Of a stretch of 52,961 nucleotides of DNA, positions 46,847 through 50,275 are shown piece by piece. Every line of letters begins with the position of its first letter. Positions within the stretch are counted from its first letter, which is position 1. Source of the DNA: Planctomycetia bacterium (GTDB lineage: Bacteria; Planctomycetota; Planctomycetia; Gemmatales; HRBIN36); the NCBI GenBank assembly GCA_016795155.1, contig JAEUIE010000029.1, positions 193,212 through 246,172 on the forward strand, in the 5' to 3' direction. The notes beneath the pieces are model-generated. The model saw only the letters and a program-made list of their open reading frames with translations, was not told the DNA's origin and made no database searches. A program made the translations under genes and the position numbers.

Positions 46847-47848
46847 ATGACCACCGTGGATACACCCCGTACAGCCGGCCACAGTCAGGCTTCTATCCAC
46901 ACCATGCAGAAATTCACCTGGATTCGCAAACATCTGCTCACCCTCGAAGAACTCGAACCCGTCGAGATCGATCTGATTCTTGATACCGCTGCGGGCTTTG
47001 TCGAAATTAACCAACGCAAACGGAAGATCGTTCCTGTCCTTAAAGGCAAAGCGGTCGTCAACCTCTTTTTTGAACCAAGCACCCGTACTAAAACCAGCTT
47101 CAGCCTGGCTGCCAAGCGGTTGTCGGCTGATACCGTTGATTTCACGACTACATCATCCAGCTTGAGCAAGGGTGAAACGTTCATCGATACTGCCAAGAAT
47201 ATTGAAGCGATGGGCATGGATATCATGGTCATCCGCCACTCGACTAGTGGCACCCCTTTGCTCCTGAGCCAGCATGTCAAATGTGGAGTGATCAACGCAG
47301 GCGATGGGGCACATGAACACCCGACGCAAGGTTTACTCGATGCCTTCACGATTCGGCAACGTAAAGGGAGTATCAAAGGTTTGACAGTAGGTCTGGTGGG
47401 CGACATCGCTCACAGTCGGGTGGCTCGAAGCAATATCCATGCCCTGACCAAGCTTGGTGCGAACGTGATTGTCTGTGGTCCACCCACGCTGATTCCCCAC
47501 GACATCCGCAAGATGGGTGTTGAAGTGGAATACAACCTGGATCGCCTGCTGCCCCGATTGGATGTGGTCAACCTTCTCCGCATCCAGTTTGAACGACAGC
47601 GTCACGGCTTATTCCCCTCCATTGGCGAATATGCAGCCCTCTACGGCATGAATGGCAAACGGATGAAACTCTGCAAGGAAGACGCACTCATCCTTGCCCC
47701 CGGCCCGATCAACCGCGGCATCGAAATGACTCCCGAAGTAGCCGATGGGCCTAACTCCGCCATTCTCGACCAGGTCACCAACGGCGTAGCAGTCCGCATG
47801 GCTGTCCTCTATCTACTCTGTGGCGGGCAGATGAGTGAAGTGGAATAG
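46847..47848 (+). CDS. pyrB: Aspartate carbamoyltransferase catalytic chain
   Basis: A 333-residue PyrB: carbamoyl phosphate plus aspartate to N-carbamoylaspartate in pyrimidine synthesis. The carbamoyl-phosphate motif [12 protein letters not shown] starts at residue 74, and the [14 protein letters not shown] and RIQFERQ regions are intact. GAGG five bases before ATG 46847. It has about 25 extra N-terminal residues before KHLLTLEEL. It would be expected to form an operon with pyrC, but a repeat-flanked DUF559 gene lies between them. Confidence 0.97.
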
Positions 47849-47856
47849 GAATACTG

Positions 47857-47948
47857 TCTGGTTCTCCCCCTTACCAAGGGGGAGTTAGAGGGGGTTGAGG
47901 TTACCGAAATCTTTACTCCACCCAGCCTCCCCGTGGAAAGGGGAGGAG
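47857..47948. repeat. Left 92-bp direct repeat flanking the DUF559 gene
   Basis: Contains two palindromes, CTCCCCCTTACCAAGGGGGAG-type and CCTCCCC/GGGGAGG around a short loop. It is about 89% identical (about ten mismatches, no gaps by eye) to 48321-48412. It begins nine bases after the pyrB stop. Confidence 0.85.
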
Positions 47949-47969
47949 AATTCCAATTGGTATCACCCC

Positions 47970-48362
47970 ATGACACGTTACTTCAATCGAGAAGGAGAGA
48001 AAGAAAAACGACGTGTTCTACGGAGTACGATGCCGCCTGCAGAAGTCATTCTTTGGCAGCGAATTCGGGGGCAACAACTCGGATACAAGTTTCGGCGACA
48101 ATTCAGTGTGGGTTCCTATGTCATTGACTTTTATTGTGCACATGAAAAACTTGCCATCGAGCTGGATGGCGAGAGCCATTTCATCGAGGGAGCTTCGGAA
48201 CGTGACAAGAATAGACAAGAATTCATTGAGAATTTTGGCATCCGCTTTCTTAGATTCACCAATGTCGATATTTATGACAACATTGATAGCGTATTGCAGA
48301 TAATCTTGAAAACATTAACTTCTGGCTCTCCCTCTTACCAAGGGGGAGCTAGAGGGGGTTAA
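47970..48362 (+). CDS. DUF559 endonuclease-like protein
   Basis: A protein of 130 residues from ATG 47970; 25 upstream in-frame codons belong to the left repeat and are unlikely to be translated. The core RSTMPPAEVILWQRIRGQQLGYKFRRQFSVG, then VIDFYCAHEKLAIELDGESH, fits the DUF559/Vsr-like PD-(D/E)xK fold, with Asp in IDFYC and the Glu-x-Asp-Gly of IELDGE as metal residues. The last dozen codons, ending SYQGGARGG, are read from the right repeat, so the stop codon also lies in it. DUF559 proteins are suspected nucleases and often sit between such repeats. Function is not established. Confidence 0.88.
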   Translation: MTRYFNREGEKEKRRVLRSTMPPAEVILWQRIRGQQLGYKFRRQFSVGSYVIDFYCAHEKLAIELDGESHFIEGASERDKNRQEFIENFGIRFLRFTNVDIYDNIDSVLQIILKTLTSGSPSYQGGARGG

Positions 48363-48412
48363 GGTCTCGGAAATCTCTACCCCACCCAGCCTCCCCTTGG
48401 AAAGGGGAGGAG
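48321..48412. repeat. Right 92-bp direct repeat flanking the DUF559 gene
   Basis: Same order and length as the left copy at 47857-47948. It overlaps the end of the DUF559 gene (its stop at 48360-48362) and ends 26 bases before pyrC. Confidence 0.85.
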
Positions 48413-48438: not shown

Positions 48439-49725
48439 ATGCACGTCACCACGACTCTCATCACCGGCGGACGCGTTATTGACCCGAGCCAGCATCTGGA
48501 TGCTGTCACCGATGTCTGGCTGCATGGCGACAAGGTACTGCACATTGGCTCGCGACCAGACTTAAAGGCGAATCACACCATCAATGCTCACGGCAAAATT
48601 GTCACGCCGGGGTTGATTGATATTCACGTGCACCTGCGTGAACCCGGTCGTGAAGAAGATGAAACCATTGCCACCGGGGCGGCGGCAGCATTGGCAGGTG
48701 GTGTCACCTCCGTTGCCTGCATGCCCAATACCGAACCAGCCATCGATAGTCAGGCTGCTGCGGAGTTCGTGGTGCTTCAGGCCAAACGGGCTCGACAGGC
48801 ACATGTCTTTCCTATCGGTGCTGTCACCAAAGGCCGCAAGGGCGAAGAACTGGCGGAGATGGGTGGCCTCGTCGCCGGTGGTGCGGTCGCTTTTACCGAT
48901 GATGGTGCACCGGTCAAGAGTGCAGAGATTATGCGACGAGCGCTCGAATACTGCCAGATGTTCGACAAGCCGGTGCTCAATCACTGTGAAGATCTCGATC
49001 TCTGCAAAGACGGCGTGATGAACGAAGGGGTCATGTCGATGAAGCTGGGTCTGAAGGGCTACCCGGCTGCTGCGGAAGATATCATGGTTGCCCGTGATAT
49101 CATCCTGGCTGAACTCACCGGTGGCGATCTGCATGTGCTACATGTTTCTTCAGCAGGTTCGGTTGATCTCATTCGCCGGGGCAAAGACAAGCAGGTGAAA
49201 GTGAGTGGTGAAGCGTGCCCGCATCATTTCCTGCTGACCGATGAATGCCTGAGTAGTTACGACAGCAACTATAAGATGTCACCACCACTGCGAACGAAGA
49301 AGGATGTAGCAGCGATCATTGCTGGCCTGAAGGATAACACCCTGGAAGTGCTGTGTACCGATCATGCTCCACACGCACCGGAGAAGAAACTTCGTGAACT
49401 CGATCAGGCCCCCAATGGCATCGTTGGCGTGGAAACGTTTCTTCCTCTCTGCATCAAGGGGCTGATTGAACCGGGGCATCTCACCTGGAACGATATGATT
49501 GCGAAGATGACGTGCAACCCGGCACGCATTCTCCGCTTGCCGGGTAAAGGCTCGCTCAAGCCGGGCATGGATGCGGATGTGACGATCATCGATCCGAATC
49601 TGCGTTGGGTGATTAAGCCCGATCAGTTCAAGTCGAAGAGCCGGAACACGCCGTTTGGCAACTGGGAAGTGACTGGCCGGGCTGCTGCTGCCATCGTGCA
49701 TGGCGAGGTGCGGTATCAGTTATAA
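48439..49725 (+). CDS. pyrC: Dihydroorotase
   Basis: A 428-residue class I dihydroorotase, which closes the pyrimidine ring from carbamoylaspartate. The binuclear zinc site is complete: DIHVHLREPG (His63, His65), AFTDDGAPV, VLNHCEDLD, HVLHVSSAGS and CTDHAPHAP. All metal ligands appear intact, so this is not the inactive PyrX-type partner often found with pyrB. AAGGA about ten bases upstream of ATG 48439 serves as ribosome binding site. Separated from pyrB by the DUF559 unit but on the same strand. Confidence 0.96.
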   Translation: MHVTTTLITGGRVIDPSQHLDAVTDVWLHGDKVLHIGSRPDLKANHTINAHGKIVTPGLIDIHVHLREPGREEDETIATGAAAALAGGVTSVACMPNTEPAIDSQAAAEFVVLQAKRARQAHVFPIGAVTKGRKGEELAEMGGLVAGGAVAFTDDGAPVKSAEIMRRALEYCQMFDKPVLNHCEDLDLCKDGVMNEGVMSMKLGLKGYPAAAEDIMVARDIILAELTGGDLHVLHVSSAGSVDLIRRGKDKQVKVSGEACPHHFLLTDECLSSYDSNYKMSPPLRTKKDVAAIIAGLKDNTLEVLCTDHAPHAPEKKLRELDQAPNGIVGVETFLPLCIKGLIEPGHLTWNDMIAKMTCNPARILRLPGKGSLKPGMDADVTIIDPNLRWVIKPDQFKSKSRNTPFGNWEVTGRAAAAIVHGEVRYQL

Positions 49726-49737
49726 TCCCGATACACA

Positions 49738-50067
49738 TTAAACCTCAATTTGAATAGTCTGTCCCTCGGCGATGCTTAAAATTGCATTCAATACTCGTGG
49801 GATCGCTGGCTTTAAATCTTCCGTTTTGTTAGATGGCGCCTTTATGGTGATGATTGATATTTTTGCGTCTGTCAGGTTTTGCTGATACACCAGATTCTGG
49901 TCAACTGTTACGAGAACATCAAATCCATGTTGGATCATCATAGTCAGTAATTCGCCATTCTGAACGCCATCCCATCCCAATTCATGAACCGATTGAACAT
50001 CCAGTCCGGATTGTTTGAAATATTGATGGAGTGGACGGGGAATACATTCATCAAGCAGCGCTCGCAT
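49738..50067 (-). CDS. DUF5615 PIN-like toxin
   Basis: A 109-residue DUF5615 protein (PIN-like). MRALLDECIPRPLHQYF, VHELGWDGVQNGELL and VLVTVDQNLVYQQN hold the acidic residues expected for a PIN-type nuclease (Asp6, Glu7, a later Asp after VTV). It overlaps the DUF433 gene by 17 bases. These pairs behave as VapBC-like toxin-antitoxin modules; the ribonuclease activity is inferred. Confidence 0.85.
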   Translation of the reverse strand: MRALLDECIPRPLHQYFKQSGLDVQSVHELGWDGVQNGELLTMMIQHGFDVLVTVDQNLVYQQNLTDAKISIITIKAPSNKTEDLKPAIPRVLNAILSIAEGQTIQIEV

Positions 50068-50275
50068 GATCTGTGATACCCTTAAAAAGTTCTTTCAAAA
50101 CTGCCGTGACTTTTTCACGATTCACTGAAGGAAAATCGTTCAAGAAAGTATCAATAGTCTCTCCAGTGGAAAGGTAATCCGAAAGAGCCTTCACAGGCAC
50201 ACGAGTTCCCTTGAAAACAGGGGTGCCACCCATGATTTCGGGGTTAATCGTAATGTTGCTGTCAGTATGATCCAT
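50051..50275 (-). CDS. DUF433 antitoxin-like protein
   Basis: A 74-residue DUF433 protein. ITINPEIMGGTPVFKGTRVPVKALSDYL is the canonical domain start, followed by FLNDFPSVNREKVTAVLKEL, the helix-turn-helix-like part. The protein probably acts as antitoxin and autorepressor for the DUF5615 toxin downstream. The module stands between pyrC and the glycosyltransferase gene. Confidence 0.88.
   Translation of the reverse strand: MDHTDSNITINPEIMGGTPVFKGTRVPVKALSDYLSTGETIDTFLNDFPSVNREKVTAVLKELFKGITDHASAA

Follow-up and report, generated by a model that had tools for sequence, protein, structure and literature searches.

The DUF559 gene that lies between pyrB and pyrC in the DNA analyzed here (52,961 nucleotides, hereafter the window) probably belongs to a REP-type repeat system of which the DUF559 protein is the cognate nuclease. 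We prefer this reading to classical homing because tailed repeats are dispersed as single copies genome-wide. The window lies on contig C29 of a planctomycete-like genome of 5.28 Mb, and related units were compared in many other bacteria.

A repeat-bracketed DUF559 gene separates pyrB from pyrC

The left neighbour of the unit, pyrB (aspartate carbamoyltransferase, named by sequence and synteny), is an ORF at 46847..47848 (+), and the right neighbour, pyrC (dihydroorotase), is an ORF at 48439..49725 (+). The gap of 590 nt between them holds two 92-nt direct repeats with a spacing of 464, at 47857..47948 (+) and 48321..48412 (+), the right copy being 89% identical to the left one. Both are REPIN-like, with a hairpin and its tail, a random spacer, and an inverted tail and hairpin. 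Using repeat analysis and folding, we located hairpin A (CTCCCCCTTACCAAGGGGGAG) at 47864..47884 and hairpin B (CCTCCCCGTGGAAAGGGGAGG) at 47926..47946 in the left repeat, and the corresponding hairpins at 48328..48348 and 48390..48410 in the right repeat. Between the repeats, the DUF559 gene (47970..48362, +) encodes a predicted EDxHD/Vsr-like nuclease of 130 aa, assigned from its ORF, its PF04480 match and its fold; no other ORF of the unit matched a family. It starts with the ATG at 47970, and its final codons and its stop (48360-48362) lie within the right repeat. An earlier note on this DNA had described the gene as enclosed by two direct repeats of about 89% identity with two hairpins each and as ending in the right one, and both the coordinates and the folding agree. 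The gap of about 126 bases that it gave for a locus without the unit corresponds to the 126 nt left if one repeat remains, removal of the whole unit leaving 34 nt. As it had also reported, neither a transposase gene in the unit nor a target-site duplication flanking it was seen. In addition, inspection of both 92-nt repeats revealed no GTAG or CGTC tag.

Just 3' of pyrC, a DUF5615 (PIN-like) gene (window 49738-50067, -) overlaps a gene at 50051-50275 (-), which we take to be DUF433-like. These two genes are a probable toxin-antitoxin pair.

The repeats form a REPIN-type family in the host genome

By sequence search, we counted 9 further full-length copies of the repeat and 2 half copies elsewhere in the host genome, i.e. 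11 full copies in total, for a single DUF559 gene, the one between pyrB and pyrC. Every aligned copy follows one plan: hairpin A CTCCCCCTTACCAAGGGGGAG, the tail TTAGAGGGGGTT, a spacer of 7-18 nt, and an inverted second arm (AACCCCACCCAGC and hairpin B). The arms are 85-88% identical between copies, and spacer identity is 49% compared to 44% for shuffled spacers. Since the arms are conserved and the spacer is near-random, the architecture of the host repeats is of the REPIN type (a free spacer between two REPs in inverted orientation). With respect to copy number, for which the REPIN criterion is about 100 or more, we obtained 11 full copies in the host, 67 exact tail motifs in one Xanthomonas genome (G061) and a maximum of 101 in another gammaproteobacterium. 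Separately, the host planctomycete (G000) possesses seven RAYT-like genes (loci L090-L096), most with distinct flanking repeats of their own; the host genome carries several parallel REP families.

The unit was gained in the host lineage

Orthologues of pyrC were found in 37 of the 41 genomes searched, host included, and the pyrB-pyrC junction was compared in the three same-family relatives where pyrB was found beside pyrC (G001, G002 and G005). In these relatives the pyrB homologues next to pyrC are 71-76% identical, and pyrB practically abuts pyrC: homology to pyrC begins 2-11 nt after the pyrB stop, and neither a hairpin nor a gene lies in between. As pyrB and pyrC are adjacent in the relatives, the repeats and the DUF559 gene were gained in the host lineage. 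A unit-free locus, which the earlier note had proposed to look for in related strains, is present in these genomes; they are of other genera, and the empty site of a single event is not readable from them.

The DUF559 protein has a nuclease fold and intact catalytic residues

The protein matched PF04480 with 101.7 bits, and its family matches were limited to PF04480, MTES_1575 and DUF2726. An AlphaFold2 model (pLDDT 83.5) matched the structure of NGO0050, itself a DUF559 protein (3hrl), the catalytic domain of I-Bth0305I (3r3p, TM 0.79 by target length) and then Vsr (Foldseek rank 7-8), and the fold is also related to the modification-dependent PvuRts1I. Residues E25, D53, H70 and D79 are invariant in 31 aligned sequences and intact in the host protein. 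We equate them with the EDxHD signature. From the domain search and the model, this single-domain protein of 130 aa contains no NUMOD or other DNA-binding domain. Within the family, YcjD was already noted as a Vsr-like PD-(D/E)XK protein (PMC1189080).

DUF559 genes and cognate repeats are associated across bacteria

A scan of species genomes provided 80 DUF559 loci from Planctomycetota, Proteobacteria, Cyanobacteria, Chloroflexota, Bacteroidota and others, 70 of which had flanks long enough for analysis. With bracketing defined as a repeat score of at least 16 around the DUF559 domain, within 300 nt, the domain was bracketed in 55 of these 70 loci, compared to 4 of 420 random placements and 5 of 357 other genes on the same contigs (about 1% of controls). 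The best bracket was inverted in 37 loci and direct in 18. In a second sample, made of gammaproteobacteria drawn evenly and one Neisseria locus, 40 of 50 loci were bracketed versus 3 of 150 controls. The theme was constant and its letters varied: a G-rich tail, for example TTGGGGTGAGGG, comes after a C-rich/G-rich hairpin, and in inverted brackets this tail is directed at the gene. The earlier note had stated that such units recur in unrelated genomes, and these counts, spread over many phyla, bear it out.

We then searched the pattern GGGAGAGGGN{1,4}GGGTGAGGG in 274 gammaproteobacterial genomes. It was present in 42 of the 60 genomes with a strong standalone DUF559, compared to 28 of the 214 others, with an odds ratio of 15.5 (Fisher p 4e-17, the relatedness of the genomes being ignored). 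The reversed pattern, used as a control, gave one match in all 274 genomes. The exact motif was missing from 18 of the 60 genomes with DUF559, and the 28 genomes that had it without standalone DUF559 carried up to 47 copies. Four gammaproteobacteria (G160, G162, G208 and G278) combine 19-47 copies of the tail motif with no strong standalone DUF559; these may be orphan repeat families after gene loss or the product of incomplete assembly. When one genome contains divergent DUF559 paralogues, these mostly have different repeats (G330, G206, G246), as expected for cognate nuclease-repeat pairs.

The pairing is seen in part in E. coli as well. In E. coli K-12, ycjD adjoins C-rich hairpins of this kind, with an asymmetrical bracketing, and its final codons extend into one of them; NGO0050 (3hrl) of N. 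gonorrhoeae also adjoins C-rich hairpin repeats. In several loci (L002, L003, L008, L016, L055), DUF559 ORF ends such as PSPAEGEG, PPTPSPKKGGG and RRSPSP are translated flanking repeats, and the annotated starts and stops of the family are often repeat-derived. No paper linking DUF559 to repeats was found in the open-access literature, subscription literature being outside the search. Carriage by plasmids or phages was rejected as an explanation, as DUF559 is rare in both: it was detected in 38 of 72,556 plasmid records, several of these chromosome-sized, and in 11 phage records, 2 of them spanning most of the query.

Filled and empty sites alternate in Xanthomonas

A DUF559 match was found in 33 of 35 Xanthomonas species, the strongest matches being at two conserved sites. 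At site A, the occupied allele reads AAG-[CCCCTCTCCC n GGGAGAGGGG]-TTGGGGTGAGGGTACGG-gene-CCGTACCCTCACCCCAA-[CCCCTCTCCC n GGGAGAGGGG]-CTT. The empty allele of six species reads AAG-[one hairpin]-CTT; G105, the seventh empty species, has no hairpin. The filled or empty state changed 7 times on the tree of the flanks, 6 of these changes being forced by well-supported branches; this count is undirected (gain or loss) and may include changes due to recombination between species. Selection on the gene is purifying (median dN/dS 0.15), and broken copies exist.

Outside these sites, each Xanthomonas genome contains dozens of dispersed tail-bearing copies. They are found as singlets without the gene, whereas the host repeats are inverted doublets. 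The tail was present on 15 of the 16 hairpins found in 1.6 Mb of two Xanthomonas genomes, and tail-less solo hairpins are rare. The tail-less solo hairpin of site A has the appearance of a remnant of loss between two hairpins, or else of a target. In G092 and G114 the pairing of its outer arms is perfect and terminator-like, which keeps the target reading alive. Between G061 and G102, which are about 95% identical at site A, most single repeats are common to both genomes, and no clean empty site was found among their genome-wide repeat gains and losses. As single repeats are mostly shared by these two close species, their spread in Xanthomonas is slow.

In E. coli, ycjD was present in 3365 of 5426 complete genomes. 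Its presence or absence was rejected as an empty-site test, since strains free of ycjD carry the eefRABC efflux operon there. The fabI-sapF site (L055, L086, L087) thus has ycjD or the eefRABC operon as alternative occupants, an alternative occupancy of one intergenic site that has been described (PMC12817139).

A REP-type model compared with homing into hairpins

In the model that we propose, the repeat on either side of the gene is its cognate, a C-rich hairpin whose G-rich tail points toward the gene. The nuclease would recognise the hairpin and its tail and nick or cut beside them, and repair or replication would then place new copies of the repeats in intergenic sites, and on rare occasions copies of the entire unit. 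Alternatively, the unit could be deleted and leave one hairpin behind. The DUF559 nuclease would thereby be the driver of repeat spread.

Homing into hairpins would reverse the roles: DUF559 would cut pre-existing sites, terminators for example, the unit would be copied in and the hairpin duplicated, and the repeats would be targets rather than offspring. We regard this as rather unlikely. The homing endonuclease I-Bth0305I is the nearest functionally studied relative by fold, but the DUF559 protein is devoid of NUMOD or any other DNA-binding domain. Empty alleles of Xanthomonas site A do retain one hairpin, with the terminator-like pairing of G092 and G114; however, solo palindromes are nearly absent among the dispersed repeats of the two Xanthomonas genomes, and the tail that 15 of 16 of these bear is the end of the unit, so the dispersed copies look derived from it. 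The relatives of the host, furthermore, lack any hairpin at the pyrB-pyrC junction. The nuclease-driven mobile or homing-like element put forward in the earlier note is upheld in part: gain in the lineage, dispersed repeats, the recurrence of the DUF559-repeat link in many phyla, the absence of a transposase and a fold related to homing endonucleases are in its favour, whereas classical homing fits less well.

A probable MITE that captured the unit in one genome

The sole multi-copy, clean-ended spread that we found was in G147, where three DUF559 units whose proteins are 96-98% identical occupy three loci (L367, L390, L391) with sharp ends. These units have terminal inverted repeats CAAAGGTATCTACAC and 9-bp target duplications, and the same ends (CAAAGGTATCTACAC...) also bound unrelated elements of that genome. 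The triplicate was therefore rejected as proof of autonomous DUF559 mobility, and the preferred reading of G147 is that a MITE captured a DUF559 unit, which hitchhikes. That the unit is generally moved by ordinary insertion sequences or MITEs, the nuclease doing something else, is quite improbable: the G147 copies are what this reading would predict, but comparable ends are absent from the window and from Xanthomonas sites A and B, and both the tail-bearing dispersed repeats and the bracketing across phyla would be left unexplained. The G147 elements that captured the unit belong to a MITE/IS superfamily with CAAAGGTATCTACACAA ends, which inserts into another dispersed palindrome (GGTTTGTAACC...) with 9-bp duplications.

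The repeats are independent of RAYTs, and a defence role is doubtful

The architecture of the DUF559-associated repeats is REP/REPIN-like, and GGGGWSAS is contained in the TIRs of some Y1 transposases (PMC3733652); the repeats might be REPs that a RAYT (Y1 transposase) mobilises, with DUF559 as a passenger. This reading is highly improbable and already largely refuted. The host genome has seven Y1_Tnp genes whose flanking repeats, where seen, differ, and none has the DUF559 repeat. Among 22 further DUF559 genomes, 8 gave no Y1_Tnp hit (some assemblies being incomplete), and the 30 RAYT loci of the other 14 bear other repeats, none of them shared with the DUF559 flanks found in the same genome (highest score 13, the noise level). 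With distinct repeats at RAYTs and RAYT-free genomes, the RAYT was rejected as mobiliser. For the CGTC REPs, no dedicated transposase is known (PMC3733652).

A Vsr-like defence or repair nuclease keeping the flanking hairpins as terminators or insulators has very little chance of being the answer: the Vsr- and PvuRts1I-related fold and the purifying selection would suit it, but PADLOC and NCBIfam gave just weak partial hits to large unrelated proteins, the neighbours are pyrB and pyrC with no defence-family match or defence neighbourhood, and terminators are not expected to be dispersed with an identical tail nor to co-occur with the gene.

Relation to known systems and significance

The REP-type reading with DUF559 as cognate nuclease places the system close to RAYT/TnpA-REP and REPINs. 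Shared features are an endonuclease gene in one or few copies bracketed by hairpin repeats, solo or doublet copies dispersed in intergenic DNA, cognate pairing and a mostly chromosomal location, and the inverted doublets with a variable spacer recall REPINs. In contrast, the enzyme is EDxHD/Vsr-like and not HUH/Y1, and the repeats are C-rich hairpins with a G-rich tail that lack the GTAG tag. By analogy, the DUF559 system would work as RAYT-REPIN systems do and yet be no member of that class, because it has no HUH transposase and no GTAG tag. With the I-Bth0305I/EDxHD homing family it has in common the catalytic fold and the conserved E, D, H and D, but it is tied to dispersed hairpins and has no extra DNA-binding domain or intron. 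Vsr (very short patch repair) endonuclease has a related fold, but DUF559 is repeat-bracketed, and no link to a cytosine methylase was seen here. YcjD and NGO0050 belong to the same Pfam family and have C-rich hairpin repeats alongside, although their standing annotations do not mention the repeats and the ycjD bracketing is asymmetrical.

Few non-coding repeats of bacteria are as common as REP-like hairpins, of which RAYTs account for only a part. We give an even chance to the broader proposal that a second, phylum-wide REP class independent of RAYTs (C-rich hairpin and GGGGTGAGGG-like tail) has standalone DUF559 proteins, YcjD included, as its dedicated nucleases, each spreading its own repeat. 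The specific biochemical prediction is that YcjD or NGO0050 nicks DNA in a manner specific to structure and tail. If true, this would give a function to a DUF found in E. coli K-12 and in about one quarter of the sampled gammaproteobacterial species, and REP-type replicators would have arisen at least twice with unrelated enzymes.
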